A stretch of 64,000 nucleotides of DNA from Escallonia rubra (lineage: Eukaryota > Streptophyta > Magnoliopsida > Escalloniales > Escalloniaceae), in assembly GCA_033065855.1 (NCBI GenBank), contig JAVXUO010003102.1:1-64000 (forward strand), read 5' to 3'. Below, in pieces: positions 17,346 through 55,750 of the stretch (position 1 is its first letter; each line of letters starts with the position of its first letter). A program made the position numbers and the translations under genes. The notes under the pieces are model-generated. The model was not told where the DNA came from. It saw only the letters and a list, made by a program, of their open reading frames with translations, and made no database searches.

Positions 17346-17639
17346 CCGCACCTCTTTAGAATATTCAGACCATCGAATTTCTTGTGGTCAAAGTCAAGTC
17401 GTCGTATAACGGAATTTTAGGACAAACAGGTCTTAATAAGTTGGGAGCAATTGCTTCCACTTATCACCTTGCAATGAAATTCCCCACGCCACAAGGGGTT
17501 GGGGTAGTAAAAAGAGATCAAGCGGCGGCCCGAAAATGTTATATAGCATCATGCAAAGTAGAGACGTTCAACATAGACGATCAACATGATGAACAGATGA
17601 TGAAGCGCGCTACCCCTATCGAAAAGCTGGTGTCCATAC

Positions 17640-19045: not shown

Positions 19046-19119
19046 GGTTAAGCATTAGCTGATTTTATTGTCGAATGTACTTCCAATTGATGAAGTTGAA
19101 TCACACGTCGCCCAACCAG

Positions 19120-19500: not shown

Positions 19501-19789
19501 CTTCGCTTGACCCGTCAGGTTTTGGTCGTACAGTCCATTTGGAGCTACTACATGAACCGAGCATCGTTGAGGGTGAAACTTTGCAAATTATGCAGGAATC
19601 ATCTTGGATTGATCCAATCAAAGATTACCTTCACAACGGTACCCTGTCTATTGACCAAAAGGAAGCCAGAAGAATCATTTCGCGCTCAGCTCACTATGCG
19701 GTAGTTGAAAATGTACTTTACAATCGATCGTTCACTCTCCCTTACCTTTGGTGCCTCACCCCAACGGAGGCAGATTACGCTCTTCGTGA

Positions 19790-23380: not shown

Positions 23381-23489
23381 TCGTCCTGGACAGATGGATA
23401 AGATCCCAAGGTAAAGAACAGACACATTGCGCCCATCGGTTAATTAGTAAAAAGGTCAAGTTTACTTTTATATCCCCCGAAATTAACCA

Positions 23490-24350
23490 CGCCTCTACTC
23501 GCCAGGCCGAGTAGATGAGCTGCCTTACAAGCCTCGTGCCTCTACTTGGCAGGACAAGTAGACGAGATGCTTAACAAGGCTCACGTCTCTACTTGCCAGG
23601 CCGAGTAGACGAGCTGCCTTGCAAGGCTCACGCCTCTACTCGCCAGGCCGAGTAGATAAGCAGCCTTACAAGCCTTATGCCTCTACTTGCCAGGCCGAGT
23701 AGACGAGCTGCCTTACAAGGCTCACGCCTCTATTCGCCAACCAAGCTCTCTACTCGTCTGGCCGAGTAGAGGAGTTGCCTTCATGCCTTGGCTCTCTACT
23801 CATCTGGCCGAGTAGATGAGCAGCTTAGAAGGACCTTGGCTCTCTACTCGCCTGGCCGAGTAGACGAGCAGCTTAGAAGGACCAAGCTCTCTACTCGTCT
23901 GGCCGAGTAGAGGAGCTACCTTCATGCCTTGGCTCTCTACTTATCTAGCTGAGTAGATGAGCAGCTTAGAAGGACCAAGCTCTCTACTCGTCTAGCCAAG
24001 TTGAGGAGCTGCCTTCATGCCTTGGCTCTCTACTCGTCTGGCCGAGTAGACGAGCAGCTTAGAAAGACCAAGCTCTCTACTCGTCTGGCCGAGCAGACGA
24101 GCAGCTTAGAAGGACCAAGCTCTCTACTCGTCTGGCCGAGTAGAGGAGCTGCCTTAATGCCTTTGCTCTCTACTCGTCTGGCCGAGTAGACGAGCTGCCT
24201 TCATGCCTTGGCTCTCTACTCGTCTTGCCGAGTAGACGAGCAGCCAAGCTCTCTACTCGTCTGGCTGAGTAGAGAACCTGCCTTCATGCCTTGGTTCTTC
24301 TCTACTCGTCTGGTCGAGTAGAGAAGCTGCCTTCAAGGCCTTAGTCCTCT
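23490..24350 (+). repeat. 47-bp tandem hairpin array in the Tat 3' region
   Basis: About 18 copies of a 46-47-base unit. Each carries CTACTCG, a short spacer and CGAGTAG, so every unit can form a hairpin with a 7-bp stem. Two subtypes follow each other: an early type with GCCTCTACT(C/T)GCCAGG and a later type with CTCTCTACTCGTCTGG and GCCTTCATGCCTTGG. Tandem repeats in the 3' untranslated part are a known habit of Tat/Ogre elements. Confidence 0.88.

Positions 24351-34236: not shown

Positions 34237-34288
<52 letters not shown>
34237..34288. repeat. (TA)n tract at MULE-1 left end
   Basis: About 26 TA units immediately precede the MULE-1 terminus GGAGCTGATCC. It is the target tract of the MULE insertion, so a target duplication cannot be told from the repeat itself. 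Confidence 0.95.
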
Positions 34289-34290
<2 letters not shown>

Positions 34291-34660
34291 AGCTGATCCG
34301 TTGAGAACGCTAGCAAAATAGTCTATTTTGCAAGCGTGATCTGACCGTCCATCCTGAAAGATGGACGGCCCAGATCTTATCTTTTTCGAAAACTGTTAGT
34401 CATCCGCGACATAGTGTCGCGGACAGCGTTTTTTACCTTTTTGCCCCTCCTCCCCTGTCCGCTACACTGTACGGCGGACGACTTTCAACTCCTGACATAT
34501 GTCAAGAAAAAGACATCTGCTACACAGTGTAGCGGACGTCCTCTAGGCTGACACATGTCAGGACCTGTCTCGTCGCCCGCCATGAAAGTCTTCTGTCAGG
34601 TCTTTATTTCTACACGTGTCAGAGTGTTGGCTATAATGTCCGCTATACAGTATCGCGGAC
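34289..34660 (+). repeat. MULE-1 left terminal inverted repeat with hairpin sites
   Basis: The first ~285 bases mirror the right end. GTCCGC...GCGGAC palindromes lie at 34,403-34,423, 34,457-34,479, 34,515-34,537 and 34,638-34,660. A further inverted repeat (CCGTCCATC..GATGGACGG) is at about 34,348-34,371. Confidence 0.88.
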
Positions 34661-35276
34661 ATTATTGCCCCTATACCCAAAAGTTCCCTAATTCTCAGCT
34701 CTTTCGGCAAAATTTTCTTCTCCTTCAGATTCACTTGCTTCCATTTTCGGCTCCCCTCAAGCGTCGAGTAACACTTGCTTCAAGCTTCACTCAAGCAAGG
34801 TAAGTTTGTGGTACAACACAAGTTTTCTGGGTGGATTGACTGATAAAGTATAATTTTTTTTTGGACAAAAAGTATAGATTTTTTGGTGATGTTCTAGAAA
34901 TTTGTCACTCTATTCATCAACTTGTGATGTTCTAGAAATTCATTTGTTAACTTTAAACAAGTTTATTGTAGTTAATTTTGATTTTATTTAGGTTCGCTAA
35001 CTTCGGCACATGTATCCTATTTAAATTCGAATTTTTTGAGATACGTCAGTTTTATTTTGGCATGATGAATTTGTCTATTTATCTTAGTAATTTTAATTTG
35101 TTATGTTCAATAAATCTATAATTAGCAAAATGGGAGACTTTTGAGATTATGTATATGGTATATTTGTCATCCTAAATTGGTCTATTCGCCAAGATAATTT
35201 TTAGGTAATATTTTCAGTTGAAAATGTCATTTGATTGTTAAGCGTAGTCTATTTCTACATAGGTCTTGTTTCACAA

Positions 35277-37572
35277 TGTCTGATTTCGTGTCGAGCTCCA
35301 ACACCCCCGTAGATGCTAGTGATCCGTAGCTAGGATGAACCTTTCAAACATTGGAAGAAGCTGGAGAATGTTTCCGAGCGTATTCATTGAGGGTTGGTTT
35401 TGGCATTAGAATAAAGACTACAAGAACAAGCAACGTAACGAAAAAGATATGCTCTCGCTTATAAGAGTGTCATAGGGGAAGAAACCCAATGCAAAATGAG
35501 ACACGCGTAGGCAACGATGACAGTGATGACGAAATAGGATATTCGCGTAGAAGACGGGAATGCTTTGCGCGCACGAATTGTCAGGTCAAGATGTTCGTAA
35601 GCTATAAACCCAAGCAAGATCATTGGCTTATTACCAGCCTGGAACTGGCACACAATCACCCGTTAGTAACCCCTTCTAAGGTGAGTCAGATGCATCAACA
35701 CAAGAAGATGGGTGAGGTCGCGAGGAGCCTGATTCAGACAATGAGCGATGCGCGGCTAGGACCTACCGACATGATTAATGTTCTTGCTGAACAGGCTGGG
35801 AGAATTCAAAATTTAAACTTTAACACGACAAACGTTCGTAACGCGGTCCGAACCCATAGACGAGCCGCGTATGACCTCAATGATGTTCAATCCACAATGA
35901 ACCTATTGAAACGGATGCAGATGGAGGACCCGCAGTTTACCTTCGATTATAAACTTGACGACGAGCATCGAGTTAGCACAATTTTTTGGGTCGACGGTCG
36001 TTCGAGGCTTGCTTATAAGCATTTTAGAGATGTCGTGACTTTCAACACCGCATACCGTACCAACAAGTACTCGATGCCGTTCACCCCTTTCACGGGGGTC
36101 AATCATCATTATCACTCCATCATGTTCGGGTTCGCCTTGTTAAGGGACGAGAGCGAGAGTTCTTTTGAATGGTTGTTTAGGGCGTGGCTGGAAGCCATGA
36201 ACAACAAAGCACCGAAAGTTATCATCACCGATCAAGATTTGGCAATGAAGAAGGCTATTGCCACCGTCTTCCCTGATACTCGACACAACTTGTTCACTTG
36301 GCACATAAGCAACAAATACCCTGAACGCTTGCATCACGTGTATGCAAAGTTTCCAGACTTTAAACAGGATCGTGACAAGTGCGTTAACAAGTTGTTAACG
36401 ATTGAGGAATTTGAGGAGAGGTGGAAAAAGCTTGTTGAGGATTACTCATTGCAAAACAACGAGTGGCTCCAGCACTTGTACGAGCTCAAAGAGCAATGGA
36501 TTGGCGTTTACACGAGGAGGCATTTTTCTGCGGGCATGAAAACGACGGGCAGGAGTGAATCTATGAATGCCACGTTCGATAGTTACGTGGGTACAGCTAC
36601 TAATTTGAAGAGTTTCGTCACATCCGCACAAAAAGCGGTTGCGTCGTTATCCATGAAAGAAAGGGCTGCAGACTTTGCAACCACGTACAAACAAAGGAGA
36701 ATGTTGCTTGAGACCCCGCTGGAGCTGAACGGTGCCAAAGTTTATACGAAAGAGATCTTCATGCTATACCAAGTAGAGCTGTGAAAATCGGGACGATACT
36801 GTATAAACAAGGTGGTAGAAAATTCTATGCGTGAGTACAAGGTTTATTCACTCGTGAATGACCTCGTCCCTGAGATGGTGTGCAGAATGTATACGGTGAG
36901 CCACGACACATTGACGGACTCGGTGACATGACATATGTTTGCAAGAAGTTTGAGTTCCATGGCATCCTATGTAGACACATTCTGCGGTTTTTCACCCAGA
37001 AGAATATCAGGACAATCCCCGATAAATACGTCTTACCACGGTGGACGAAAGGTGCAAACAGGTTGCACGGTACCATTGCCTTTCCGGAGCACCCGTATAC
37101 TGACTTTGAAGAATCAGAGACGTTGCTGTATAATCATCTGGTGACGATGTTCACCCATTTGTCCGTAAAGGGTGCTGCTACAATGGTCGGATATAAACAT
37201 CTACTCGAGGTAGCTCAGCAGCAAGAGCCCATCGTCGATCAATTGGAAGCAGATTCAGTCACAAATGCGGTTGACACCGAGCCTACGACAGGATCAGAAG
37301 ATGACAAGCCGGGGGAGGAAGATGAAAATGATATCCGGCCTTTGGATCCAATTATATAGCAAACGAAAGGCCGCAAGAGATCTACGCGGATGAAAAGCTC
37401 TATTAAAACGGCAACTCAACCTAAAAAGCTGAGAAGGTGTGCATTGTGCAACAAAATGACCGACAACGACAAGCGAAACCATTACAAGGCACTGGGGATA
37501 AGTCCAGGGGGTTTGCAAGACGAGGAAGAAGATGACGCCGAAGATGAGGACGAACAAGCTGCAGTGGAATAA
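35277..37572 (+). pseudogene. MULE-1 FAR1-like transposase, decayed
   Basis: Start ATGTCTGATTTCG at 35,277 lines up with the intact MULE-2 protein. Segments in order: FAR1 zinc-finger DNA-binding domain (ECFARTNCQVKMFVSYKP then LELAHNHPL, about 35,540-35,660); MULE/DDE core (VVTFNTAYRTNKYSMPFT near 36,030, with the first catalytic Asp replaced by Asn; VIITDQDLAMKKA near 36,220; GRSESMNATFD near 36,550); SWIM zinc finger (CKKFEFHGILCRHIL near 36,940); a basic/acidic tail with zinc-knuckle-like CALCNKMTDNDKRNH (37,438-37,482). Stops occur near 35,327, 36,782 and 37,357, and the frame shifts between 36,784 and 36,880. Function when whole: cut-and-paste transposition in the nucleus. A host FAR1/FHY3 gene is excluded by the flanking element. 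Confidence 0.88.
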
Positions 37573-37723
37573 TTTTTGTACAAGCCATCAAGTCTGTTTG
37601 ACATTTGTAATAATTTTTTATAATTTGTTTTTAATAATTTTTCGACCGAATACTGGATTTTTTTTTCCTGATGGACCTATGAGAGCCATCAAATCTAAGT
37701 TTAAGTTTTTTTTTATTAGCCCC

Positions 37724-37998
37724 GTCCGCTGCATAGTATAGCGGCCGCCTCTGCAGAGTCTTAAAATTCCAACACTAGAAAGAAAATTTTGACCTTCTTT
37801 TAAGTCTGCTATACAATGTAGCAGACGTCTCTACAGAAAGAAAATTTTGACATTCTTTTAAGTCCGCTATACAATGTAGCGGACGTCTCTGCAGAAAACA
37901 ACTTTTGACCTTCCTTTCATCCGCCACACAATGTAGCGGACGACATCGCAGAAAAAGACTTTTGGGTTTCTTTTGGTCCGCTTTACAATGTAGCTGAT
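37724..37998 (+). repeat. tandem array of five 23-bp palindromes upstream of the B3 gene
   Basis: Palindromes at 37,724-37,746, 37,804-37,826, 37,862-37,884, 37,919-37,941 and 37,976-37,998; the last four are spaced 57-58 bases and are embedded in a repeated unit with GACGTCTCTGCAGAAA and TTTTGACCTTC. Each palindrome is a variant of the stem GTCCGCTACA facing its complement across three bases. Confidence 0.85.
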
Positions 37999-38011
37999 GA
38001 CTCTACCCTGT

Positions 38012-38019
38012 TATATATT
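38012..38019 (+). promoter_or_regulatory. TATA box of the B3 gene in MULE-1
   Basis: TTATATATTAATC lies about 200 bases upstream of the B3 start codon and directly after the palindrome array. A C-rich leader follows. Confidence 0.5.
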
Positions 38020-38215
38020 AATCAGATCGGCCAATCATCTTATCACTCCGTTCGTTTCTCTATCTGTCTCAAACATCTCACCCAGCCGTTACCCCATCTA
38101 CGGCGACCCACATCTCCGGCGACACCACCGTCCTCCCCCTGACGCAGCGCCGCCTCCGGCGACAACCCCGTCCTCCCCTCAACGCCGCGGCGCCACCAGC
38201 GACATCCCTGTCGTG

Positions 38216-38674
38216 ATGGCTTCTGATTCCTCGAGCAACGAATTTGTAGGCAACATGCACCTTGTAGGCAGACACTTTTTCAAGGTCATGATGCCTCGTT
38301 TTGATACAGAACTTGTAGGCCATCCCTCTTTCTCTGTGTTTTCGTGTTTGTTAAAAGTTTGATCTTTGGTTAAAAACTTACCCTTTTTTGTATTATGAAT
38401 ATGTAAGGACATACCGGTAGCCTTTTCCGATTGGCTTACCACAATTTATTTCGATTCAACTTTAACCAGCCGCAAGGGGTCATGGCATGTTAGAATCAAG
38501 ATGAAGCGCGGCCAAGGTCAAATTTGTTTTGCAGAGGGTTGGAACGAATTCGTGCAGCAGCATGACCTCGAACTCGGGGACTTTGTAGTGTTTGAACACA
38601 CGGGGAAGTGGAAATTTTAAGTGACGGTGTTTGATCGGAGCACTTGTGAAAAAACTTATTTCCCCCAACGTTGA
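38216..38674 (+). pseudogene. B3 DNA-binding-domain (REM-like) gene carried in MULE-1
   Basis: Two exons are inferred: 38,216-38,314 (33 codons, MASDSSSNEFVGN... HFFKVMMPRFDTEL) and 38,408-38,674, joined across a GT..AG intron (38,315-38,407). The product reads as a single B3 domain: HFFKVMMP.F at the N-terminus, DIPVAFSDWL, SWHVRIKMKRGQGQICF, EGWNEFVQQHDLELGDF and VFEH, followed by VTVFDRSTCEKTYF. B3 domains bind DNA in plant transcription factors (REM, ARF, RAV, ABI3). A TAA at 38,618-38,620 comes just before the last strand of the domain, so the product would lack its final ~18 residues. The leader is GC-rich and host-like (CGCCGCCTCCGGCGAC). Likely a captured host gene; not a usual part of MULEs. 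Confidence 0.72.
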
Positions 38675-39039
38675 ACCGTAAATTCTGTTATGAATAAATT
38701 TATGTTAATGTTAATTATTTTTCCAAATTTTAGGTTCTTAATTGTGCCGTTTGAGATTCCGTCGATATTGAGATTGTTGATTGTTAATCGTACATTTTTT
38801 TATTATTAATCGATATTGAGATTGTTGATTTCGTCGCTAAAATAAGTCTTCGGTCGCCAATTTATTAAAACAAAATTATCGACGTCCGCTACAATGTCTA
38901 GCGGACGGCGCAGCAGAAATTCCTAACACTTGAAAAATTGAAAGACGGGGTTCTCTTATTAGAATGGCATGTGGATAAGTGCTAGTTGGAATGAAATCCT
39001 AACATACAGTAGGAAGATATATATATATATATATATATA

Positions 39040-39173
39040 GGGAGCTGATCCGTTGCTAGCGCTAGCACCGTCCGCTATATAATGTAGCGGACGGTGAATT
39101 ATCGTCCGCTACATTATATAGCCGACGGCAAAACAGCGCTAGCAACGTGCTAGCGCTAGCAATGGATCACAAC

Positions 39174-39175
<2 letters not shown>
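39040..39175. mobile_element. 136-bp MITE with MULE-1-type ends, in a (TA)n tract
   Basis: Left end GGGAGCTGATCCGTTGCTAG, right end CTAGCAATGGATCACAACCC, flanked by (TA)n on both sides (39,018-39,039 and 39,176-39,220). Its body is little more than two palindromes of the MULE-1 type (39,070-39,092 and 39,104-39,126) and GCTAGCGCTAGC repeats. It has no coding capacity and would need transposase from a MULE-1-like element. It resembles in habit the Micron MITEs of rice, which also sit in (TA)n. Confidence 0.8.
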
Positions 39176-39230
<55 letters not shown>

Positions 39231-39231
<1 letters not shown>

Positions 39232-39575
39232 TACTCTTCATTTGACATATACTCATCAGATAAGTACTGATCATTGGTTAAAATATTGTTTCTCTCGTTT
39301 GAATTGAGGTGCCTCCCACTAGCCTCGGCCATTTCTTCCGCAAGTTGAAGCATGTAAAATCGTTTTCTACGCAGCAACATCCGGTTATTCTCCATACGAA
39401 TTCGGCACACAACTTTCTTACACTGCTTAACATTACGCCTCGACATACTAAGTGAACGACGTTGCGGCACATATGCTCTCAGCGTGGTGAGATCTTGGTG
39501 TAGTGCTTCTAATTCCTTAACTCGATATGCCCATTACGCCTCGACATACTAAGTGAACGACGTTGCGGCACACTT
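39231..39575 (-). other. unassigned minus-strand frame with 41-bp duplication
   Basis: A 79-codon basic/acidic frame (39,231-39,470) encodes RRKRFYMLQLAEEMAEASG and ends in acidic EYMSNEE. It may be the tail of the PMD-Ulp1 gene or of another gene; I cannot tell. CATTACGCCTCGACATACTA and the 21 bases after it are repeated exactly at 39,431 and 39,532 (offset 101). Confidence 0.4.
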
Positions 39576-39764
39576 TGTTTCCCACCGTTCAAAGCAAATT
39601 ACAGATCAGTTAATGAGCCAAAATGCTATCTCTGACCACAAATCAAACACTCAACTGAATTCAACACAACGATATCGGTCAATCAAATCAACTGATGTCA
39701 ACACAAATCAAATCAATCGCATTCAATATATGTTTATTAAAATAGTGAATATAATGTTACAATG

Positions 39765-42700
39765 TCAATTGGGGCCCTCATCTCCTGCGGGATCCTCGTC
39801 ATTACACGGATTTACAATAAACCTAATAGCTCTAGGCCGGCCATTCATAATTTGCCAAGCCATCATATACCTAAAGCCTTGTATGCATTCTTAGCTCCAG
39901 ACGGTCTTCTTGAGGCTCTCAGACCGACAAATGTAATCCATGTACATGCAGACGAAGAAGCCGCAGTCCGAGGAATTATGTTACTTGGGCTTACGCCTCT
40001 TCAATCGGAAAATGAGCTTCGGCCTGCGCGGTACCCTCTCGTCACGCCTACCATTGACTAAGGCAACAAATAGATTCTGCGAGAAACATAATAAGCGTTA
40101 AACATTAAACATAGAAAACATAATAAGATTAATCAGTTTTACAATATGCAAGTTACAAGAAGAAGTAAACAAGATCTTACCATGGCATACAACTGGCCTA
40201 TGCCTTTGTACATGCTAATCACAGGCATCCCGGGGGTATCATCGTAGAGACTGTCGATGACTGATACCGTCTTCTCTATTGGTTCATAGCAAACCAAGTA
40301 CCAGTGGGCATTCCCTAAAAATGGGATTAGAAACACGTCGGCAACACTTGCGCTCACTGGACGATCCCTAGCAAGATATGCTTGTAGGTTAGCGGACGGT
40401 CTCCACTGGGCCAGGGTTCTCCCCTTCCTTGAATTGACCCAGTCGTGCCACTCTTGTACTAGGATGCCATGAAAAAAAACATCCAAGATAAAAATGCGCG
40501 GACCAAAGTTTGGCTGCTCCCGACCCCTTTGCCTCAGAATTTGCACGTAGTGCGAGATGACATCGTTGTCTAACCAAGCTCCCGGCGGCAGCGAGGCCAA
40601 TTCTAACCACGAACAATTGTAATCCAAGCCCTCCAGGTGGTCCACGTCATACGACGCTCCGTCTTGGGGGGGTCCGCTAAAATAACAGGCTCGAATTAAC
40701 TCGCATGTACGCGACTTTAGGGGCCTGGCTGGATGCCCTTTCGGATATTGCCCTCGGGGGTCGACCGGGGGATATTACCCTCCTTCATGGGGGTCAACCG
40801 ACAAATCTCGCCCTCCGCCGGGGGGCAAGAGCAAGGGATATTGGACTCTAATTCCTGGTTCAGCCGGCTGATAATGTCCTTCGGGGACCCCGGCCGGCTG
40901 ATATTGCTCTCCGGCCATTTCTTCCGCCGGCTGATATTGGCCTTCGGGGAGGTCAAACGGGGGATATTGCCCTCCGGGGGTGCCAAGTGGTCCCGCCCAC
41001 GGGACAATGGGCAGTGCCTCGGAGAAACCGTAGTTTCTGAAAGGTCAGTCTTGCGTGACTTGACTCTGAGATAGGGGTTGGGGTTCCAGGAACAAATTGA
41101 AGGAGGGGCCGCTGTAATCGCCCCACGACTCTTGAGCCTGTCCCATCCCCGCTACAGAGGGACCACCAACTCCCTGGCTCACCCCTGAAGCCTGTCCCGA
41201 TGGATCACCGTATCCCTGGCTGATGCCCGTATAACCCATTCCTGGGCTAACGACCGAAGACTATCCCGATGCTTGGCGCAAAAAATTCCCACAGCCTAAA
41301 GCCAATGCAGCAGTCTGTAGGCGAAGATCCTCACTCATTGCGCTCACCAGATCCTTCCGCTCACTCAACTTCTGGAAGAATGCAAGCGAGGCATTAACCT
41401 ACATCCTAAGAGATAAAAAATAAGTAACTTCAATCAGACATTTATATTCATCAAATTCAATTACGACAGACTTGTTGGGAAACTTACGAGATTGTATGCC
41501 ATACGCTCATCGATCTGACCCCTATGCGCATACCTCTCCCCCCGTTCAAAGTTTACTGGAGTTACTCTCCTCCGCGTGATGCGGTAGTACCACTCATCGT
41601 ACTGTTCGATGCTGATAACGGGGTCAGGCTACGAGATGATGGCCGCCAGTGTGTCCTGCCAAGAACTCCAAAGCTCTATTTTGGCCGCGCACAATTCATG
41701 CGCATTGGCCTTGCCAAACCGTCCGACACCCGGTGGGTTCCTGTTAACCCTCATATCTGGGGCATCGGCTGGCAAACCCTGCTCCAACTCAAAATGGCGC
41801 ATTGCTCAGTCTGGCAGCTGCCACTCTGCGACCTCGAAGTGGATCAGGGGTGTGCGCTGCAACCCGAAGAGCGTGAAGACGAACGACTCTCCCACCTGTC
41901 GCACCAAACGTATGTACGGTGCCCAATGTATTTGGCTCGGAGATAGACGGTCGAACTCCCCTCGATAGTACGTAATGTTGTGATGGGGATCGACTCTCCT
42001 CTGGTAGTGGCTATCCCTCCGCCTGTACTCCCAAGCACACAACCGAGGCCACACTTTATCGGTTCCATCCATACACGTTGGTGCACCGGGAGCAAGGTGT
42101 TCATAAGACCACACCTGAGAACATGGGCAAATTATATTTATATTGTCGATTCAACAAAAAAAAAACAATAACGAAGACATGATTTATATGATATTCCTTC
42201 AATAGCGAGAGACATGCACATATGGCTTTGGAGTCGGGCCTCGTTGCCTTGTGCAATGCTCGGTACAGATACGAAAGGATCGCTGCACCCCAGGCATAAT
42301 CCCCAACCTCCCGCAGGTTACACAACAACGGTAAATATTTCACGCTGACCGTGTTCTTCGACGTCGCTGGGAATAAAATTGCCTCCCATCACCCACAAGA
42401 GGAAGGCTTGTGTGTACAGCACAAGCATACGGCCCGTATAGTTTTCCGACAAAACCCCGTAGGTATCTACCAACCACTTCAATTTTATACCACCACTGCT
42501 AAATTGATCATGGGGTATCGAAGTGAAGAAGTCCCTAGCGGTTCTCTTATTTGTTGCTTCTGACGGAGGAGCAATTACCGCCGCCCCGTCACCGGTAACC
42601 TTAAGATGAACCCTACATCTTCTAGGGTAATTGTCATCTCTCCGAGCGGGAAGTGAAAAGTATTTGTTTCACTTCTCCACCTCTCAACAAGGGCACCTAT

Positions 42701-43010
42701 CAAGGCCCGGTCAAGCTATTGAAAGATTTGCCCATGCGTGAAAATCCCAAACCCAATTCCACGTAGTATCTTTTTCTGGGACTTGTTCAATTTCCATGCT
42801 GTGAACTCGTGAGATACTTCTACGGTGGTGAGAAGTTCTCTTTCCTACGAATTAATAAATACAATTTAAGCAAAACAGGTATATAACGTTCGTAAGAATA
42901 AGAAAGTTGATAAATAATGTATCTTACTCCACCATCCCATATGAGCGTACTGATATGGTTGGCTTGGTCGTATAACAGGATGGATCTTCTGGTCCAGGGT
43001 TAAATTCCAT
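39765..43010 (-). pseudogene. MULE-1 PMD-Ulp1 fusion gene (plant mobile domain + C48 protease)
   Basis: Read on the minus strand from ATG at 43,010 (MEFNPGPEDPS). The PMD (aminotransferase-like plant mobile domain) shows LIGALVERWRSETNTFHFPL, GEMTITLEDVGFIL near 42,620-42,690, YLYRALHKATRPDSKAI near 42,230, then after an intron VWSYEHLAPGAPT, RRVDPHHNITYYRGEFD and RTPLIHFEVAEWQLPD (to 41,806). A Gln/Tyr/Pro/Gly-rich linker (about 40,720-41,240) has many EGQYQPA and GQYPP repeats. The Ulp1/C48 domain gives WLDNDVISHYVQILRQR, GNAHWYLVCYEP (His), VIDSLYDD (Asp) and NSSDCGFFVCMYMDYI (Cys) near 39,930-39,990. The catalytic triad is therefore present, but several stops interrupt the gene. Ulp1 proteases cut SUMO from proteins; PMD function is poorly known. 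Compare the better-kept copy in MULE-2. Confidence 0.82.
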
Positions 43011-43488
43011 TTTTTACAACTGAAATTATGGAAAAACCTTCTCAGTTTGGATTTTACGGTTTGGATTTTGATAATCGCTCGCAAAAATACTACGCTAGCA
43101 CATGCATAATACATATAACGCAAGCACGTGCATAATACATACAATGTTAACATATATGATTTTATGTATAATAGATATATATACATATACGGAATCGGAT
43201 TTTACAAACGCTAGCACATGAACAAATACATACATATATAAATTTTCATCGCTAGCACATGCTCAATGCATAATCAAAACCACGCATAAAATGCAATATT
43301 CATCACAACTATATATTACAAACATGTAAAGGATTGATTTTGTGAACTTACGTGATCTATTAGGGTATTAAAGCTGCTCTTAAGAAGAAATTGCACAGAT
43401 CTGCTTGCCAACGCCGCTGGGAATATTTGTGAGTAGGAAGAATGGAGAAGAGTGTCGTAGTTAGGATTTTTTTGAATATATATTAAAC

Positions 43489-43912
43489 GTCCGCTACACA
43501 GTGTAGTAGACAGTTTTAGGACGTCCGTTTCACTATATCGCGGACTATTGCGTCTGCCACACTGTGTAGCGGACACTGTTGACGTGACAGATAAGGACAA
43601 GATAACCGTCGTGGGCGTAAAGGACTGACGGGACAGGTCTTGACACGTGTCAGCCTAGAAGACGTCCGCGACATAGTGTAGCGGACATCTTTTTCCTGAC
43701 ACATGTCAGGACTTGAAAGTCGTCCGCCGTACAGTGTAGCGGACAGGGGAGGAGGGGCAAAAAGGTAAAAATCTCTGTCCGCGACACTATGTCGCGGACG
43801 ACTGACAGTTTTTGAAAAAGACAAGATCTGGGGCGTCCATCTTTCAGGATGGACGGCCAGATCGCGCTTGCAAAATAGGCTATTTTGCTAGCGCTCTCAA
43901 CGGATCAGCTCC
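43489..43912 (-). repeat. MULE-1 right terminal inverted repeat with hairpin sites
   Basis: The last ~285 bases mirror the left end. Palindromes lie at 43,489-43,511, 43,523-43,545, 43,552-43,574, 43,664-43,686, 43,722-43,744 and 43,777-43,799. Confidence 0.88.
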
Positions 43913-43939
43913 ATATATATATATATATATATATATATA
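43913..43939. repeat. (TA)n spacer between MULE-1 and MULE-2
   Basis: Only a 27-base AT repeat separates the right end of MULE-1 (..CAGCTCC) from the left end of MULE-2 (GGGAACTG..), so both occupy one TA tract. Confidence 0.95.
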
Positions 43940-46738: not shown

Positions 46739-46789
46739 AAATATTATGGACGCTAAGTTGGTTTACGATTATAGTTTGTTCTTAGAGAT

Positions 46790-49582
46790 ATGGATTTCAA
46801 CCCCGGACCTCATGATACATCAATCCTATACGATGACGATGACCACGTCGCGAGGCACGTATTTGACGGTGTCGATAGGGGTGTTTTGGAAACAATTCAA
46901 ACCACAAGAGGAATTGAAGAGTGGGTACTAAACGAGGAACAAAAAGCCCTTATACACGGTCAAAATTGAAGCCTGTTCACCGATTACGGGAAATGGTATC
47001 GACACGACGATTGCCTTCTATCCGCTCTAGTTGAACGATAGAGGAGCGAGACGAACTCATTTCATTTCCGGTTTGGTGAAATGACTGTTACGTTAGAGGA
47101 CGTCGGATATATACTTGGAATCCCATGTCATGGCAGACCCGTTACTCTGAGCGTGCCGTCTGCATCCGTAGCGAATATGGCTAGGCATTATTTTTCGGGA
47201 ATTCCAAGGGCAGCTCTTACAACAAACGGCGTCAAGCTTAAATGGCTAAGAGAGCAGTATGGCGTGCTACCGGATGAATACACTCGTCATGATTTCGTGA
47301 CGTATACGAGGGCATACCTTCTGTATATTATTGGAGCCATATTACTTCTGACGCATTCGAAAAACACGGTGCATCCGAAGTATATGGTGTTATTGGAGGA
47401 TCTTGACGAGGTATACTCGTATTCGTGGGGTTAAGCTGTCCTTGCGCACCTATATCGAGCACTACATAAGGCTACGAGAAACGGTGCCAAGTCCATTGCC
47501 GCCTGCCTGACTCTATTACAGGTATGAGCATTTATTTTCTTATCCGGATCCTTAGTCAATATATTCGGGATTCATTACTAATTCCATATAATGTTTGCGT
47601 TCACAGGTTTGGTCTTACGAGAGGCTACCCACGGGTCGTCCACAACCGTTGGTAGATTCCGATGAGACGTGGCCTAGGGTGTGGGCCTGGGGGCCTCCGA
47701 CCAACCGGAGGAGGAGACGGGTAGACCCTCACAACCATCTACAGTTCTATCGGGGGGAACTAGAGATGCTGGATGCATACCAGGTGGCGTGGCAGCCATA
47801 TGACAAGGTGATGCATCTGTTGGATGAGTTGTGTTGGCAACTTCCGGTGTCGTACGTGCTTGCAGGTTTGGTTCGGGTGCCGCTCATTCACTTCGAAGAA
47901 TGTGAGTTTCAGATGCCCGATCGAGCTATGAAGCAAGCTGGCTGTCCACAAGGGATTCTGAAACCCGCTGTAGACATGCGGCCATACAGGGGTGGTCGAG
48001 GGCCGAACTTCGAGGTGGCTAATGCCTTGACTGTGTTGGGTGACGAGGTGCAACAATGGAATTCCTGGCAGGAAACGTATGACAACCTTGTATCGCTGAA
48101 GCACGACGGCATCAGTACTGAGGACTACTTACAGTGGTTTCTCAGGGTGACGCGCACGAGGGTGAATCGCCCTTCCCAGGTGAAGGAGACATCGTATGCG
48201 CCACGTGAGGTCTATGACCAGTTCTGGGCATTGGCCATTGTAAGTCATGCTAGTGTTGTTTGATAATTTATTTGCGCACGCGTATCGACCATCAAATGAA
48301 ATGATTAGCCATATTTTCTATGCATGTTTTTTAGGTTGACCAGGCCACTGACGTGTTCAAGCAGCTGGAGTCGTTTGACTGGTTTGTCGCGCAGGCTCCT
48401 GACAATATCCAGAGGTCCATTGAGAGGTACAAGACTGATGTTCAAAACTTTAGTCTTGCGTACCGGGGTTACCAAGGGGAGCCGTCTAGTCGCCCTCCTC
48501 CTGACGCTTACGACTATCAGCCCCAGAGTCAGGTGTGGGAGCCGTCTAGTCGCCCTCCTCCTGACGCGTACGACTACGGAACCTCGAGTCAGGTGTGGGA
48601 GCCGTATAGTCGCCCTCCTCCTGATGCATACGACTCTCAGTGCCAGAGTCAGGTTCCCCAAGTAGAAATACATGCCTCGCGCCCAAGATTCCGATCGAAC
48701 AAAGGACAAGCGACGAAGCCATTGAGGCCGGAGAAGATGGGTTGGATCGACCGGCACTACTTCGGGCATGAGCCTGTCAATTCAACAGACTTCCCTCTTG
48801 GGACACTCCTAGGTCATTCGGATATCAGAATGTTGGCGCCGGAGACAGATCTTTCAAATTTTGTCATCAACGCTTACATAGATCTGCTCCGGATTAGAGA
48901 GCATCAATTTAACCGTTCTGAATACTGTAAGCTTAACATATATCCCACTCATTTTATGGAATTAGCGATCCGGGAATTCCATGAATGGAGGCAAGGGGGC
49001 AACAGGAGTAATTGGAAACCAGGTCGAAACGTGTTATGCATGATGAACGCAGAGTATCAATGTCCTGCTGCTGATGCGAACCTTATCATGATACCTTGTC
49101 TTCATGGGCACCACTGGTTCCTATTAGTTCTCCATCCAGCGTTCAGAACGGTTCACATATACGATAGCCTAAGGGAGGACGAGCCTGGACAACTGCTGGC
49201 ACAGATGTACAACGACTACATCACTTTAGTGGTTAGTTTTTATTTTTTGACCTTGGCTCATAGTATATTGTTGTTGTTTCATAGGCTTGATTCTCGATTT
49301 TATTGTTGGATGCAGACTACTGTCCTCTCGCTAGCGTGCGGACGGCCACGGGGGGAGCCTTGGACGGTCGTGATGATAAAGGACCGACCAAAGCAATATA
49401 ACGGTAACGATTGCGGGATTTACGTCCTCAAGTACATGGACTACATTGCTCGCTCGGAAGTGCTCAAACACTTCTCGTGGACTAGGAAGGATGCCTTGAC
49501 GTTTAGGTATAGGATAGCCTGGGAACTGAAAAAGAATGAAGCCAGACGACTTCATTACCATTATCCTGACGTGCATGGCTAG
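46790..49582 (+). pseudogene. MULE-2 PMD-Ulp1 fusion gene, nearly intact
   Basis: Four exons are inferred: 46,790-47,521, 47,607-48,239, 48,335-49,228 and 49,316-49,582, all with GT..AG borders in matching frame, 842 codons including the stop. Exons 1-2 encode the PMD (MDFNPGPHD; YRHDDCLLSALVER, GEMTVTLEDVGYILGIP, VWSYERLPTGRPQ, RRVDPHNHLQFYRGELE, PLIHFEECEFQMPD). Exon 3 starts VDQATDVFKQLESF, then three 20-residue repeats of SSRPPPDAYDY...SQVWEP (48,481-48,660), then the Ulp1/C48 domain with GHHWFLLVLHP (His), HIYDSLRED (Asp) and, in exon 4, QYNGNDCGIYVLKYMD (Gln and Cys). The catalytic triad is complete. Two nonsense codons in exon 1 (TGA at 46,967, TAG at 47,039; the latter stands where relatives have Trp, TGG) break an otherwise open gene. 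Ulp1 proteases remove SUMO; here the target is unknown. Nuclear role in transposition is inference. Confidence 0.85.
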
Positions 49583-50042
49583 CTGCTGTGATGTTACAAA
49601 AAACTGTACCAAAAAGAAATATACATAATTTTTTGCATGCTATGAATTTGGCGCTAAAATGTGGGCGAATATACAGTTCATATGACACATTCGAAAAAAT
49701 AACGTGTCTCGTTGTTCGCCGAAATACATAAGAATGGGCTAACTAGCGCGCCTCATGTGCAATGAGCGAAAAAAAAGTGACAAAAAAATTTACAAGATTT
49801 TTCGAACGTTATGAATTGGCCCCTAAAGCATGACTAAAGTGCAATGAACAAAACAAATTACAAGATTTTTCAGGAAGCTATGAATTGGGCGCTAAAGCGT
49901 GCGCGAATATGCCATTCAAAAAATTTCAATAATCCACAAACCAAAGCACAAATTAAAGATTCAACAAATCAAATCACAAATTTAAACATTATAAAAGTTA
50001 TTCGTTATACAACTGAAACATTAACCCTAACACTCTTCTTCC
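49583..50042. other. junction between convergent MULE-2 genes
   Basis: Non-coding AT-rich stretch with three diverged copies of CTATGAATTGGGCGCTAAAG (near 49,640, 49,810 and 49,880), each next to an ACAAGATTTTT or similar block. Probably holds the two 3' ends. Confidence 0.5.
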
Positions 50043-51986
50043 TCATCGTCCTCCTCGACCATAAATGTACCCATCAAATGTTGACGCTGCATCCATTGAT
50101 AAACCGTGCATGATGTTACAAAGATGATTATATCGCAGCGCCTCAGATTGCCTGAAATCAACTGAAACACTGGGCACGTAAGGAATGTGACCGTGGACTC
50201 TATTGGCTTCCTTCGTCCACCGTTCCAAGATATACTGTGGAGGGATTTGAGTTGCATTCTTGGCGCTCAAAACCCTCAACGCATGTCGACAAAGTATACC
50301 TTTATGCTCAAAGAGTTGACAGTTGCAATTTACCAACCCGGTGTCCATACATTTAGCTACGGTAAAATGTCTTCTGTTCCTCGGAGCCGACGAAGAGTAC
50401 GGATTGGCATAATTCGTCACATTTGTCAAAGCATAAACCTTGAGATCTCTGGTGGAAAACTCGTGCAACTTTGTCATGCCATATTGATTCGACTTTAATA
50501 GTTCCTCTTGAAACTGTCGAAACATTTCCTTCGTATAGACTTGAGCCGCATGAGCCTCCAAAGGTGAACAAAGTAGTATGGCTCTTTCTCTGTAAACTGT
50601 AGCCGCGTCGGCTTCTCTCTCACGGTACAATTGCCTCTCAAGGGCTTTCTGCATCTCTAGTACAAACTCCGCTATACTTGAAGACTGGCCTACGTACCCA
50701 TCAAAGAATGAATTCATAGCTTCGCTTCTCGATGTCGTAGTCATTCCGGCTGCAAAAAACTTCTTGGTGTAGGCACCGACCCACTGTGTCTTGAGCTCAT
50801 ACAACGATTGTAACCATCCATGATTGTGCAAACCGTAGTCATCCATTAATGTGGCCCACCTCTCCTCGAACACGTCTACCGTCAACGATTTCTTCACACA
50901 TGTATTAAAGTCAGTCCTGAATGACGGATGGTTTGCATATACATTGTGAAGCCGTTCGGGATATTTGTTGCTTATGTGCCATGTGCACAGGCCATGGTGA
51001 GTATTTTGAAGGACCTTAGCGATTGCATTTTTCATTGCCAGATCTTGGTCGGTGATGATGGTCTTTGGAGGAATATGGTACATTGCTTTAAGCCACGTTT
51101 CAAATAACCACGTAAATGACTCCTCCGTCTCATCCCTAAGCAGGGCAAAGCCAAATGAGATTGACTGATAGTGGTGGTTCACCCCGGTGAACGGAGCAAA
51201 AGGCATAGAGTACTTATTGGTGCGGTATGTGGTGTCAAACGTCACAACATCCCCAAAAATTTGGTAAGCAGCTCTAGAACGGGGGTCCGCCCAAAATATA
51301 GTACTAATGCGGTCCTCATCATCCACTTGGAGACTGTAGAAAAATACAGAATTCTCACTCTGAAGGCACCTGAAGATATCAAGTGTAGATTGAGAATCGA
51401 TCTGACCGAAATACTCTCTCCTCTGAGCACGGAGTTCATTTCGAAGGTCAACTTCGTTGAAAGTCAACTTGTCAATCCCCCCAGCCTGGCTTGAGAAAAC
51501 CCCCATCATCTTAGAAGGTGGAATTTTAGCGTCGGCCATTGTTGAAATCAGTTGTCTGTGTGCCGCGCTTATTTCTCGGTGTTGATGAATTTGACCAATC
51601 ATACTAGGGGTGCAAAACTGATGATTATGGCTCAACTCCACACCCGTCACAACCCAATGGTTTTCATTTTTCCGGTGTACTGCATACACATGGGCTTTGC
51701 AGCCGGTACCCGGAAATGTGTCCCGTTTTCTTTGTCTTGTTGTCCCTTCGTCACTGATCTGAACGACCGGAGGTACATGCGGTGCTCCTCTATGACACTC
51801 AAATAACCTTGCACCAATTTGATCGGTATTCACCCGTTTTCTAGTCGTCTTAGTTCTAATACCGAAACCCATCGTTTTCGAATATGCTCTGTAGTATGCT
51901 TCGACTTCGTCCAGTGTTTGAAAAACTTGACCCAAGTAAGGTGGATCAGAACCTTCACAAAAAATATTTCCTCCAGTTGCATCCAT
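50043..51986 (-). CDS. MULE-2 FAR1-like transposase, intact 647 aa
   Basis: One uninterrupted frame on the minus strand. Domains: FAR1 zinc-finger DNA-binding domain about residues 25-125 (ligand candidates C64, C96, H120, H122); MULE transposase core about 225-430 with likely catalytic D251 (FDTTYRTNKY), D313 (ITDQDLAMKN) and E422 (TSRSEAMN), and the C/H motif CTWHISNKYPERL at 334-346; SWIM zinc finger with C554, C556, C566 and H568. Length and order fit FAR1-related MULE transposases such as Jittery. It would bind the element ends and carry out cut-and-paste transposition in the nucleus. No C-terminal zinc knuckle like that of MULE-1 is present. The start is the first Met in frame and gives a family-like N-terminus (VFQTLDEVEAYYRAYSKTMG). 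The gene reads inward from the right repeat and converges on the PMD-Ulp1 gene. A domesticated host FAR1 gene is the alternative, made unlikely by the surrounding inverted repeats. Confidence 0.92.
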   Translation of the reverse strand: MDATGGNIFCEGSDPPYLGQVFQTLDEVEAYYRAYSKTMGFGIRTKTTRKRVNTDQIGARLFECHRGAPHVPPVVQISDEGTTRQRKRDTFPGTGCKAHVYAVHRKNENHWVVTGVELSHNHQFCTPSMIGQIHQHREISAAHRQLISTMADAKIPPSKMMGVFSSQAGGIDKLTFNEVDLRNELRAQRREYFGQIDSQSTLDIFRCLQSENSVFFYSLQVDDEDRISTIFWADPRSRAAYQIFGDVVTFDTTYRTNKYSMPFAPFTGVNHHYQSISFGFALLRDETEESFTWLFETWLKAMYHIPPKTIITDQDLAMKNAIAKVLQNTHHGLCTWHISNKYPERLHNVYANHPSFRTDFNTCVKKSLTVDVFEERWATLMDDYGLHNHGWLQSLYELKTQWVGAYTKKFFAAGMTTTSRSEAMNSFFDGYVGQSSSIAEFVLEMQKALERQLYREREADAATVYRERAILLCSPLEAHAAQVYTKEMFRQFQEELLKSNQYGMTKLHEFSTRDLKVYALTNVTNYANPYSSSAPRNRRHFTVAKCMDTGLVNCNCQLFEHKGILCRHALRVLSAKNATQIPPQYILERWTKEANRVHGHIPYVPSVSVDFRQSEALRYNHLCNIMHGLSMDAASTFDGYIYGRGGR

Positions 51987-52039
51987 ATTTATACTGAAAT
52001 CTAAAAAATAAAAACCAATACGATTATCAACAAGTCATA

Positions 52040-52529
52040 GAATTAAATAAAAGAAGAATAAAAATTATTTAAACGTAATTGCTGGAAAAATTCGTATAAT
52101 GTAAAATTATCAAAATAGCCCCCCACGAGCGGCAAATTAGCAAAATGTCCCCGGGGAGTTCATTATCACCCTAACGTCCCAAATCAGCTTGAAAACAACA
52201 TTTCAGGTGCTTTGCTTACATTTCTGGACTAAGAAGTCCTTTAAAAAACTTAACGCTGCAAAATTACGAAAATACCCCCCTCGGGGCTGCGAATTACCAA
52301 AAAATGCCTCCTGGCATCAAAAAATCGTTCGGAGTGCTTTGAAACGGGATTTTAAGCTTCCTGAATTCATCCGGGACAAAATAAGTTTTCGGGTGTCTGA
52401 CACCCTTTGCTGAACTAAAAGTTATTTTAAGGTATGGCCCTTTAAGCTGGATCCTTCCTAACAAAATAGCCCCCGATGAGCGGCAAATTACCGAAATGCC
52501 CCTGGGGGTTCACTATCAGGTTCTGTGAT
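52040..52529. repeat. extra LTR-like unit inside the right TIR
   Basis: 52,100-52,330 is a diverged duplicate of 52,980-53,180 (CAAAATAGCC...GAGCGGCAAATTA, then ACATTTCAGGT...GGACTAA). It has no counterpart in the left half, so it lies just inside the right inverted repeat. Confidence 0.65.
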
Positions 52530-55500
52530 TACATTCCAAAACTACATTCCTGGATCTTTAACCTAGCTTACCAACACATTAGCAATAGTCATTATTTCAT
52601 TGTATTAAAACAAATCCTCACTTCCCACCACTCCGAACGCTTAATTACGGTAGTTCTCACTGAATTTAGCGCCAACGTGGTTATATAGCAATATACCCCC
52701 CGATGGCCCCTACACCCCCAAGACCTCAACACCGCTTTGAAGTCAAGTTTTTAAATGTATTACGTCAATTATATACCAAATATATCAGGAAAAATTTTAA
52801 AGGGGGAAAGTTACCAAAACACCCGCTACTTATGCAAAATACCCCCTGGCAGTCATCGCCGGTGCGTCACAAGTTCCTGAATTCACCCGGAACAATAAAA
52901 GTTTTCGGGTGTCTGACACCCTTTGCTGAACTAAAAGTTATTTTAAGGTATGGCCCTTTAAGCTGGATCCTTCCTAGCAAAATAGTCCCCGATGAGCGGC
53001 AAATTACCGAAATGCCCCCGGGGGTTCACTATCACCCCAACGCCCCCGAACCAGCTTCAAAACAACATTTCAGGTTCTGTGATTACATTCCTGGACTAAA
53101 ACTGTCTAATTAAAAACTTGGCGCGGGAAAATTACCGAAACACCCCTCGCGGGGTGGCAAATTACCAAAATGCCCCTGGCATCAGGAAAAATCTCAAAGG
53201 TGCCTCGAAATGCTACTTTACGCTTCGTGAGTTCATCATTGGCCTAAAAAGTACTTTACGGATTTTTCGCGCAAAAATCGTGAACCGGTGTCCAGATCGA
53301 CGCTGAAAGGGCCGGTCGGCCAAAAAAATAGCTAACGGCTCCGGAATGGCGCGAAATCCTGGGGAATGGAACTTCCCAACATCCTAGGATTCTCGTAAAA
53401 GTTTCGCGTGAAATCGTGCTAGCTTGGTATTTTAAATTAGACTGCGAAGGTACACGGTTCCCCGTATCAGTTAGCCCCTTTACAGTCTTTGGAAGAATCT
53501 GAAATTTTTACCTGATATAGATCCTTTCAGAATAACTAGGGTCTCTGTTTTGCACTTTGGCCAAATCACGCTCTAGCTATTGTTTATAAATCCGTGAAAA
53601 AACTGTCTAATTAAAGGCGCGAGCGCTGAAAGGGCCGCTCGGCCAAAAAAATAGCTAACGGCTCCGGAATGGCGCGAAATCCTGGGGAATGGAACTTCCC
53701 AACATCCTAGGGTTCTCGTAAAAGTTTTGCGCGAAATCGCGCTAGCTTGGCATTTTAAATTAGACTGCGAAGGTACACGGTTCCCCGTATCAGTTAGCCC
53801 CTTTACAGTCTTTGGAAAAATCTGAAATATTTACCTGATACAGATCCTTTCAGAATAACTAGGGTCTTTGTTTCGCACTTTGGCCAAATCACGCTCTAGC
53901 TATTTTTTATAAATCCGTGAAAAAACTGTCTAATTAAATGACGAGGGGTGAAAGGGCCGTTCGGCCAAAAAAATAGCTAACGGCTCCGGAATGGCGCGAA
54001 ATCCTGGGGAATGGAACTTCCCAACATCCTAGGGTTCTCGTAAAAGTTTCGCGCGAAATCGCGCTAGCTTGGTATTTTAAATTAGACTGCGAAGGTACAC
54101 GGTTCCCCGTATCAGTTAGCCCCTTTACAGTCTTTGGAAAAATCTGAAATATTTACCTGATACAGATCCTTTCAGAATAACTAGGGTCTCTGTTTTGCAC
54201 TTTGGCCAAATCACGCTCTAGCTATTTTTTATAAATCCGTGAAAAAACTGTCTAATTAAAGGGCGAGGGCTGAAAGGGCCGTTCGGCCAAAAAAATAGCT
54301 AACGGCTCCGGAATGGCGCGAAATCCTGGGGAATGGAACTTCCCAACATCCTAGGGTTCTCGTAAAAGTTTCGCGCGAAATCGCGCTAGCTTGGTATTTT
54401 AAATTAGACAACGAAGGTACACGGTTCCCCGTATCAGTTAGCCCCTTTACAGTCTTTGGAAAAATCTGAAATTTTTACCTGATACAGATCCTTTCAGAAT
54501 AACTAGGGTCTCTTTTTTGTACTTTGGCAAAATCTCGCTCTAGTTAGTTTTTATAAATTCGTGAAAACTGTCTATAAATGTAATACGCTATTTTGAATCG
54601 CTATAAATGTAATACGCTAAATGTAATACGCTGATTTGTATAAACCTAACATTGAATTATAAGGAAATTCAAAATACTTACTTGTTGTGACTTGATGTAT
54701 TTGAAGAAAAATCTACCGATCTTCTAGCGATTATCCACCGATCTTCTAACGCTAAAAATTTTTGGTTTGTGGAGAAGAAGTGTGGAGAAGAAGGGTTGGG
54801 GGGAGGGGATTATAAAGAGAGAAAAGTGAGGAAGAGAGAAGAAAAAAGAGGGAAAAAAAATACACGTGAGTGGTCTCTGCAAAGTGCCCGAATAGGCTGC
54901 AAAAAAAAATTTGGAAGGACAGTCACAGGGGAGGGAAGGACGCGCGTGGGGGGGGGGGGGCGCCACGTGGTAGGGCCGGGGGGGGGGGGAAGGGCAAGCC
55001 GCGGGGCCCTTCACGCGGTGGGCCACGTGGCAGGCGCGGGGAGGCCACGTGGCAAGGCCATCGCCCCAACCGGCGCCCCTTCACGCGGTTGGGCCAAGTG
55101 GCAGGCGCGGGGGAGGCCACGTGGCAGGGCCATCGCCCCAACCGGCGCCCCTTCACGCGGTTGGGCCACGTGGCAGGCGCGGGGGAGGCCACGTGGCAGG
55201 GCCATCATCCAACCGGCGCCCCTTCACGCGGTTGGGCCACGTGGTAGTCGTGGGGGACGCCACGTGGCAGGCTTGTGCTCGAATTTTTTTTTTTTTTTGT
55301 GGGAGCCAACCAAAAAATCTGAAATTTTTTGTGTGGGAGCCACCCAAAAAAAAGTTACGCAAAAGCCACCAACCGCTTCTCTTATATGCGGTTGGTGGGC
55401 AAAAAAATTGTTAAAAAAAAAAGTGCTTACCAACCGCTTCTAAGAGAAGCGGTCGGGCAAAATGTTAAAAAAAAAATTGTCCCAACCGCGTATAAGAGAG

Positions 55501-55710
55501 GCGGTTGGGTGGAGTGGTTTTTTGTGGTGGGGCCCACGTCAAAAAGATAATCATACGCAACCGCTTCTCTTACATGCGGTTGGGCTAAAAAAAAAAGGAG
55601 TGCTTTTTTGTGGTGGGGCCACGACAAAAAGAAATCCTACCCAACCGCTTCTCTTACATGCGGTTGGGTGGAGAAAATTTTTTTATCCACCGGTGGGTGT
55701 GGATCGGTTC

Positions 55711-55712
<2 letters not shown>
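52530..55712 (-). repeat. MULE-2 right terminal inverted repeat (~3.2 kb)
   Basis: Mirror of 43,940-46,738 with the same zones in reverse: LTR-like 52,530-53,310, four 322-bp units (53,310-54,580), 29-bp repeat, pyrimidine/purine block with the mirrored TATA-like motif near 54,803, G-box-rich GC block (54,950-55,270), hairpins (55,060-55,670). It is about 380 bases longer than the left repeat, mostly one extra 322-bp unit. Confidence 0.9.
53310..54580 (-). repeat. 322-bp tandem repeat, 4 units (right TIR)
   Basis: AAAATAGCTAACGGCTCCGG recurs near 53,329, 53,650, 53,970 and 54,294 (spacings about 321, 320 and 324). Confidence 0.9.

Positions 55713-55750
<38 letters not shown>
55713..55750. 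repeat. (TA)n tract at MULE-2 right end
   Basis: Nineteen AT units directly after ..GGTTCCC. LINE sequence resumes at about 55,751. Confidence 0.95.

Follow-up and report, generated by a model that had tools for sequence, protein, structure and literature searches.

Two decayed FAR1-type Mutator-like elements of Escallonia rubra with a convergent PMD-C48 gene, a possible VANC-like anti-silencing factor on microsatellite-targeting transposons

The stretch of DNA analyzed here (the window) comprises 64,000 nucleotides of Escallonia rubra, positions 1 to 64,000 of contig JAVXUO010003102.1 (assembly GCA_033065855.1), and its gene content is that of plant DNA. It was found to hold two separate FAR1-type Mutator-like elements (MULEs), A and B, each a decayed member of its own recently amplified family with a high copy number (Table 1). 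In each element a transposase gene faces a second gene, which joins a plant mobile domain (PMD) through a linker to a C48 (Ulp1) peptidase domain. The second protein may be a VANC-like anti-silencing factor on microsatellite-targeting FAR1/Jittery-type MULEs, a proposed function that we regard as evenly poised.

The limits of the elements were deduced from their inverted arms, which in A measured 286 nt at 92% identity by inverted-repeat search and direct reading. For B the same search placed the arms at 43940-46740 and 52529-55712, with 88-99% identity in the pieces listed. Terminal inverted repeats, by which a MULE is recognized, were thus present in A and B, as they were in the complete sister copies. 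The complete A-family element at C2249 is 11.9 kb long, with arms of ~315 bp at 97% identity and a long (TA)n run at its left and a short one at its right, and the complete B-family element at C2140 is 11.1 kb long, has (TA)n at both sides and carries 2.26-kb arms that are 98% identical. In the window, too, (TA)n bounds each element, and the sole DNA separating A from B is (AT)13.5. The expected target site duplication of 8 to 11 bp was unreadable because the element ends sit in (TA)n. A (TA)n run and a match to the terminal repeat at 39148-39231 had prompted a reading of A as two separate units. This was rejected, and A was concluded to be one element, because the alignment to C2249 shows an inverted segment holding a small (TA)n-flanked insert. 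The insert (39031-39222) ends in (AT)28, and one of its ends resembles the terminal repeat of A.

The transposases of both elements have the layout of an N-terminal FAR1 domain, a MULE core and a SWIM domain. The Pfam matches for B were MULE at 6.5e-31, FAR1 at 7.2e-14 and SWIM at 1.8e-7, and those for A were MULE at 6e-28, FAR1 at 1e-6 and, in a second frame and marginally under the cut-off, SWIM at 9.7e-4. By this domain layout alone the elements were provisionally classed as Jittery-like. Both window copies are decayed. The transposase of A is broken across frames and carries Asn in place of Asp at what is presumably the first catalytic Asp, and that of B falls out of the frame of its family at approximately residue 642 of 763. 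The frame counted from Met is 763 to 765 codons in the 24 loci read across the genome (20 B and 4 A, chosen stop-free), and it is open over 764 to 765 codons in the 4 A-family sister copies among them.

The second gene of B is made up of four exons and three introns with GT-AG borders, the third donor being ambiguous by 3 nt. The window copy matched PMD in two places (4.7e-25 and 5.6e-15) and C48 (3.1e-15), and has three in-frame stops in PMD exon 1; its counterpart in A, which is split by decay, matched PMD at 3.1e-12 and C48 at 4e-5. One spliced B protein gave 4.6e-66 for PMD and 1.7e-13 for C48, with DUF7745 and DUF1985 also matching the PMD part. Against DUF1985, the PMD part of three spliced proteins scored 5.1e-7, 9.3e-6 and 0.15, and none of the three reached the curated cut-off of 35.1 bits. 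The intron between PMD and linker, read by eye, matches in place and phase between the families. One spliced gene is supported by this shared intron, since the PMDs of A and B are only ~45% identical (44-47% between families for six spliced PMDs).

The closest solved chains to the C48 domain were SENP2 (3.3e-8) and then SENP1 (~1e-6), with His, Asp, Gln and Cys aligned, which we take to be the catalytic residues. The His, Asp and Cys of the triad are legible in both window copies, and 12 of 13 open B copies retain all four residues, as does a further locus, L037, described below. These data bear out an earlier note on this DNA, which had described a FAR1-like transposase facing an intron-containing PMD-Ulp1 gene in both elements, with its His-Asp-Cys triad; the Pfam matches and the convergent order agree. 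Its view that the two are a diverged lineage and not two recent copies also stands, at ~52% identity for the transposases and ~45% for the PMDs. The splice that it placed at 48240-48334 does fall on an intron, which is one of three in the B gene and not the sole one.

The families were traced in the window's own assembly (566 Mb, 3222 contigs). The search with the B transposase gave 67 scored places out of 4324 candidates, at 94-100% identity, 54 of them stop-free over the matched stretch. With the A transposase piece 96 places were scored, at 92-95% identity apart from the piece itself, and 90 of these had no stop. Twenty of the 67 B loci were read, chosen for contig room and all stop-free, together with 4 of the 96 A loci, stop-free too. 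Further stretches read were element ends and two PMD-anchored loci, L037 and L038, the latter being N from 4502 onward with its transposase side not visible. Three B copies (L025, L026 and L027) are identical over 658 compared transposase codons, from which recent amplification was deduced. Scans of viral contigs with the PMD piece and the B transposase gave no relative.

A PMD exon lies convergent to the transposase within 10 kb (658-3775 bp between them) at 59 of the 67 scored B places, the window's included. No other PMD layout was seen near any of the 67, and none was listed for the remaining 8, among which are L023, with a diverged exon, and L024. Counted from the PMD side, at least 59 of 150 PMD places have a listed B transposase, 67 B transposases having been scored. 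In the A family at least 38 of 96 scored transposases have a convergent PMD, a lower bound because 150 of 2796 PMD candidates were scored; none was listed for 56, and in 2 of the 96 a PMD lies 11-12 kb upstream, in the same orientation as the transposase. Random placement of the 150 PMD places would put ~0.006 within 12 kb of a transposase. The layout was concluded not to be due to chance, since it is repeated at so many B and A places. C48 genes are widespread in the genome, with 284 matches (150 of 2352 candidates scored).

In the loci read, which were picked among stop-free transposases, the second gene was convergent in 19 of 20 B loci and open across its four exons in 13 of the 20, as well as in L037, where it again faces a B-type transposase. 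Stops or frame losses were found in L010, L011, L014, L016, L022 (truncated by the contig end as well) and L023. L024 lacks the second gene, and its likeness to a complete element ends just beyond the C48 end. All 4 A loci have a convergent second gene with at least C48 and part of PMD. The proposal of the earlier note that PMD plus C48 forms a regular second protein of the lineage is thereby upheld for B, where the gene is convergent wherever it is listed within 10 kb. A lack of association between PMD-C48 genes and FAR1-MULEs, which the note had named as the outcome that would speak against it, was not observed in this genome in either family.

Insertion into (TA)n microsatellites was supported by the ends of many copies. 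An A-type end motif occurs 1298 times exactly in the genome, and its reversed-pattern control 0 times. (TA)4 was found within 6 bp outside 593 of 657 exact A-type ends on the reverse strand; only reverse-strand ends were counted, as forward counts repeat the same end, and reverse ends appear once each in the rows listed. Outside the window, four B-type ends were seen in three loci and three of them adjoin (TA)n, the exception being the right end of L017. Flanking by (TA)n is far above chance, as in the microsatellite-targeting MULEs MuTAnT, SaTar and Micron. The first 100 A-type ends listed included 24 inward-facing pairs, of which 16 were 1.0-2.2 kb and 6 were 11.2-12.4 kb apart, with single pairs at 274 bp and 19.6 kb. 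These look like a non-autonomous class (the 16 of 24 at 1.0-2.2 kb) and an autonomous class.

Both coding and non-coding parts of the elements vary in tandem repeats. The linker is a tandem peptide of 20 residues, and open B copies differ in length by 20-residue steps, with 2.7-6.7 nucleotide units in the B copies where the array was detected. A non-coding array of 167-bp units between the two gene ends of B has 1.8-6.9 units where found, and the 322-bp array in the B terminal repeats has 2.0-5.2 units where found, some arrays being cut by the ends of the stretches. In the A family there are arrays with units of 56 and 76-78 bp. A 29-bp tandem unit at 44942-45018 contains GTATTAC, which is near but not identical to the VANC21 motif YAGTATTAY (PMC5735166) and may be due to chance.

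Past selection was estimated as the ratio of nonsynonymous to synonymous divergence (dN/dS), with codon-bootstrap ranges, for L037 (contig C1738:258000-265999) against L012 and L025. The FAR1 transposase part gave 0.36 in both comparisons (0.20-0.68; 0.22-0.62), and L037 against B copies gave 0.36-0.39 over the 396 codons of the transposase part. For PMD the ratios were 0.41 and 0.38 (0.29-0.57; 0.28-0.55), and for C48 they were 0.59 and 0.65 (0.39-0.85; 0.42-0.98). The bootstrap ranges were below 1 throughout, save for the linker, where the upper bound of one pair was 1.00. PMD exon 2 of the A family gave 0.32-0.33. Both proteins have therefore been under past constraint.

The divergence of L037 is uneven, as it is 93% identical to window B in the transposase part, 81-83% in PMD and 66-76% in C48, which suggests module exchange between lineages; the elements look like mosaics. 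A faster evolution of the second gene was considered and is weakened by dS, the synonymous divergence, which between L037 and B copies is likewise higher in PMD and C48 (0.24-0.33) than in the transposase (0.09-0.11). In L023 (contig C984), PMD exon 2 is only 61% identical to B and most of exon 1 ~95%, consistent with an exon swap or local decay.

Each part of these elements has precedent, and their combination appears to be a new form of a known type of system. MuDR likewise has two genes (mudrA and mudrB) within an element bounded by terminal inverted repeats. Its two genes are convergent, and its second protein is not known to be related to PMD-C48. The closest parallel is VANC, with Kaonashi (KIU), of the VANDAL MULEs of Arabidopsis, also the second gene of a MULE. 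VANC is described with DUF1985, a tandem-peptide variable region and non-coding target repeats (PMC5735166), and the PMD found here matches DUF1985 weakly. Some VANDAL VANC genes carry Ulp1 (PMC13317346), as the present gene carries C48, and half of the VANDAL group has PMD and/or a DUF (PMC6446971, Table 1). VANDAL and Jittery are nevertheless separate groups, 45 and 36 (PMC6446971), and the present elements combine a transposase of FAR1 layout with (TA)n targeting. VANC and KIU are characterized by sequence-specific loss of DNA methylation on their own family, which for the gene described here would be a prediction.

Among microsatellite-associated elements, AutoMuTAnT and SaTar/Micron share with A and B the (TA)n flanks, terminal inverted repeats, many short non-autonomous relatives and side-by-side arrays, and the AutoMuTAnT transposase is Jittery-like (PMC4486113, PMC5907723). 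AutoMuTAnT differs in having a single open reading frame (ORF) in 4.9 kb (PMC4486113). Clusters of microsatellite-associated MULEs and miniature inverted-repeat transposable elements have been described (PMC5907723, PMC8449440); the text of the guayule/rice paper on microsatellite MULEs contained no mention of FAR1, of a protease or of a mobile domain. Jittery-like MULEs of melon and grapevine have a ULP sequence downstream of the transposase, as here, with PMD, linker repeats and a fusion gene unmentioned in the accessible portion of that paper, and ULP in MULEs generally lies in either orientation (PMC2528002). PMD-bearing MULEs of other groups (MUDR, MDR, MuDR-9_OS and others) often have the PMD antisense to the transposase (PMC6446971, Table 1; PMC5418596). 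In the same Table 1, the Jittery group has one ORF and no PMD, as opposed to the two genes with PMD found here, and "Ulp1" and "peptidase" had no match in the text (PMC6446971). PMD-C is fused to transposases in grasses and Amborella, with an anti-silencing role proposed (PMC5418596); some genic PMDs are fused to protease domains (PMC7156037); and Jittery and TED are treated in PMC9569675.

The earlier note had held that the pairing may be undescribed. This needs qualification, since ULP in Jittery-like MULEs, antisense PMD and VANC with Ulp1 are in print (PMC2528002, PMC6446971, PMC13317346). A single gene uniting PMD with C48 on an element of FAR1 type was not found in the accessible open-licence literature, in which Repbase was not included. 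New relative to that note are the (TA)n targeting, the tandem-peptide linker, the high copy number and the decay of both window copies.

We infer that counteraction of silencing is the best-supported function of the PMD-C48 protein, as a tandem-peptide variable region and an Ulp1/C48 domain of KIU type are both present. By this mechanism the transposase would bind the terminal repeats and cut and paste the element into (TA)n, and the PMD and the fast-changing linker would bring the second protein to repeats of its own family, as VANC does in VANDAL. At those repeats the C48 domain would then remove SUMO, or a different small modifier, from proteins of silencing or chromatin, releasing family members from silencing and allowing expression of the transposase. 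By gaining and losing units of their peptide and non-coding repeats, families would be able to shift their specificity. More specifically, and only tentatively, it is proposed that VANC-type sequence-specific anti-silencing exists outside VANDAL, with PMD as the parent of DUF1985, the peptide repeats setting the target and C48 stripping SUMO, and that it drove amplification to more than 1000 exact A-type ends.

Several observations weigh against counteraction of silencing as the function. VANC and KIU are carried by VANDAL elements, and the transposase here has the FAR1 layout, a comparison of layout only. Homology to PMD does not give the sign of the effect, because PMD is also linked to the host silencing factors MAIN and MAIL1. 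The DUF1985 match, already under the Pfam cut-off, is weakest in family A, and one open frame through the linker was found in 0 of 3 A copies read, so that an intact A protein is not demonstrated. Retention of the C48 residues is not proof of SUMO activity; the open copy L012 has Tyr in place of the putative catalytic His, and one review considers SUMO an unlikely substrate of the Kaonashi proteases (PMC6117577). The non-coding arrays are not universal: in window B, L014, L017 and L028 no array of 167-bp units was detected, and L017 and the complete C2140 element gave none of 322-bp units. The open fractions come from a non-random sample, as the loci were picked among stop-free transposases. 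Close pairs are noisy, three of them (a B pair in PMD and two A pairs at the C48 end) having dN/dS above 1 on very few changes, and the divergence of the second gene in L037 is partly attributable to recombination between lineages because dS is higher there too.

Four other functions were weighed. The protein could act on the FAR1 transposase directly, removing a SUMO-like modifier or cutting it and so setting its stability, nuclear location or activity. The fixed pairing within one element and the SENP-like catalytic residues of C48 would fit this, but the PMD, the variable peptide repeats and the likeness to DUF1985/VANC would be left unexplained, and it is considered unlikely. In a slightly less likely alternative, the PMD mimics or competes with the host MAIN/MAIL1-PP7L silencing complexes and C48 is secondary. 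MAIN and MAIL1 act in the silencing of transposable elements, and PMDs encoded by such elements have been proposed as a counter to it (PMC5418596, PMC8616336). The PMD is constrained, as this alternative would predict, but C48 is constrained as well, with its catalytic residues kept in nearly all open copies. The element PMDs are only 22-26% identical to the genome's four best-scoring PMD genes, and MAIL-type host genes were not identified in this analysis.

A mudrB-like helper role of the second gene, in insertion or (TA)n targeting, is quite doubtful. The layout does resemble that of MuDR, with its two ORFs, but AutoMuTAnT, which is Jittery-like and inserted in (TA)n, has one ORF only, and (TA)n targeting hence needs no second gene (PMC4486113). 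Very little credence is given to PMD-C48 being captured host sequence, a Pack-MULE-like passenger without function for the element. Repeated capture was deduced for ULP sequences, which occur in several transposon types (PMC2528002), and MULEs are proposed to have taken up PMD on two occasions (PMC5418596). The passenger explanation ranks low because of co-occurrence and constraint: the gene was found in 19 of the 20 B loci and all 4 A loci that were read and was open in 13 of the 20 (loci chosen for stop-free transposases), PMD and C48 gave dN/dS below 1 for L037 against B with only one pair's linker reaching 1.00 at its upper bound, and the introns match in two families at ~45% identity.

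Other PMD genes were seen in the genome. The four best-scoring PMD genes mentioned above, L001 to L004 (contig C922, 1276726-1298317), are uninterrupted, stand in tandem and have open frames of 643-689 codons; they are mutually 53-76% identical in PMD and are likely host genes. Two more PMD families have many equal-scoring copies, with open frames of 596 and 685 codons and PMD in two stretches, and could be of retrotransposon type. Elsewhere in the window, positions 15929-20631 hold a retrotransposon remnant, with gag, reverse transcriptase and RNase H and a weak match to integrase, and minisatellite arrays lie at 8946-9441 and 23488-24335, with units of ~100 bp and 46-47 bp.

Table 1. Positions of elements A and B, their genes and their repeats in the window
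Feature	Position	Strand	Remarks
(TA)25 microsatellite, left of A	34239-34288	.	
Element A	34289-43912	.	decayed FAR1-type MULE, internal rearrangement; limits from arms, (TA)n flanks and alignment to the complete sister at C2249
A transposase remains	35465-37359	+	FAR1-MULE in 35465-36784, SWIM part in 36874-37359, different frames
A second gene, decayed	39798-43010	-	PMD, repeat-rich linker, C48; start codon ATG at 43010, lower limit approximate
(AT)13.5 run between A and B	43913-43939	.	
Element B	43940-55712	.	decayed FAR1-type MULE, long terminal inverted repeats
71-bp tandem repeats, B left terminal repeat	44378-44577	.	
322-bp tandem repeats, B left terminal repeat	45016-45971	.	3.0 units
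B second gene (PMD, linker, C48)	46790-49582	+	exons 46790-47521, 47607-48239, 48335-49230, 49316-49582; 3 stops in exon 1
Linker tandem repeat between PMD and C48	48477-48654	+	60-nt (20-residue) unit, 3.0 units
B transposase, FAR1-MULE-SWIM	50043-52034	-	open frame of 663 codons, without the family's C-terminal part
322-bp tandem repeats, B right terminal repeat	53302-54574	.	4.0 units
72-bp tandem repeats, B right terminal repeat	55007-55271	.	
(AT)19, right of B	55713-55750	.	

If the second protein is indeed a VANC-like anti-silencing factor, plant transposons other than VANDAL would also make use of such factors. The many near-identical copies with open genes make this idea directly testable. 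It would also bring together three lines of work, on the part of PMD proteins in silencing, on transposon-borne Ulp1 genes and on MULEs with TA microsatellites as insertion sites.

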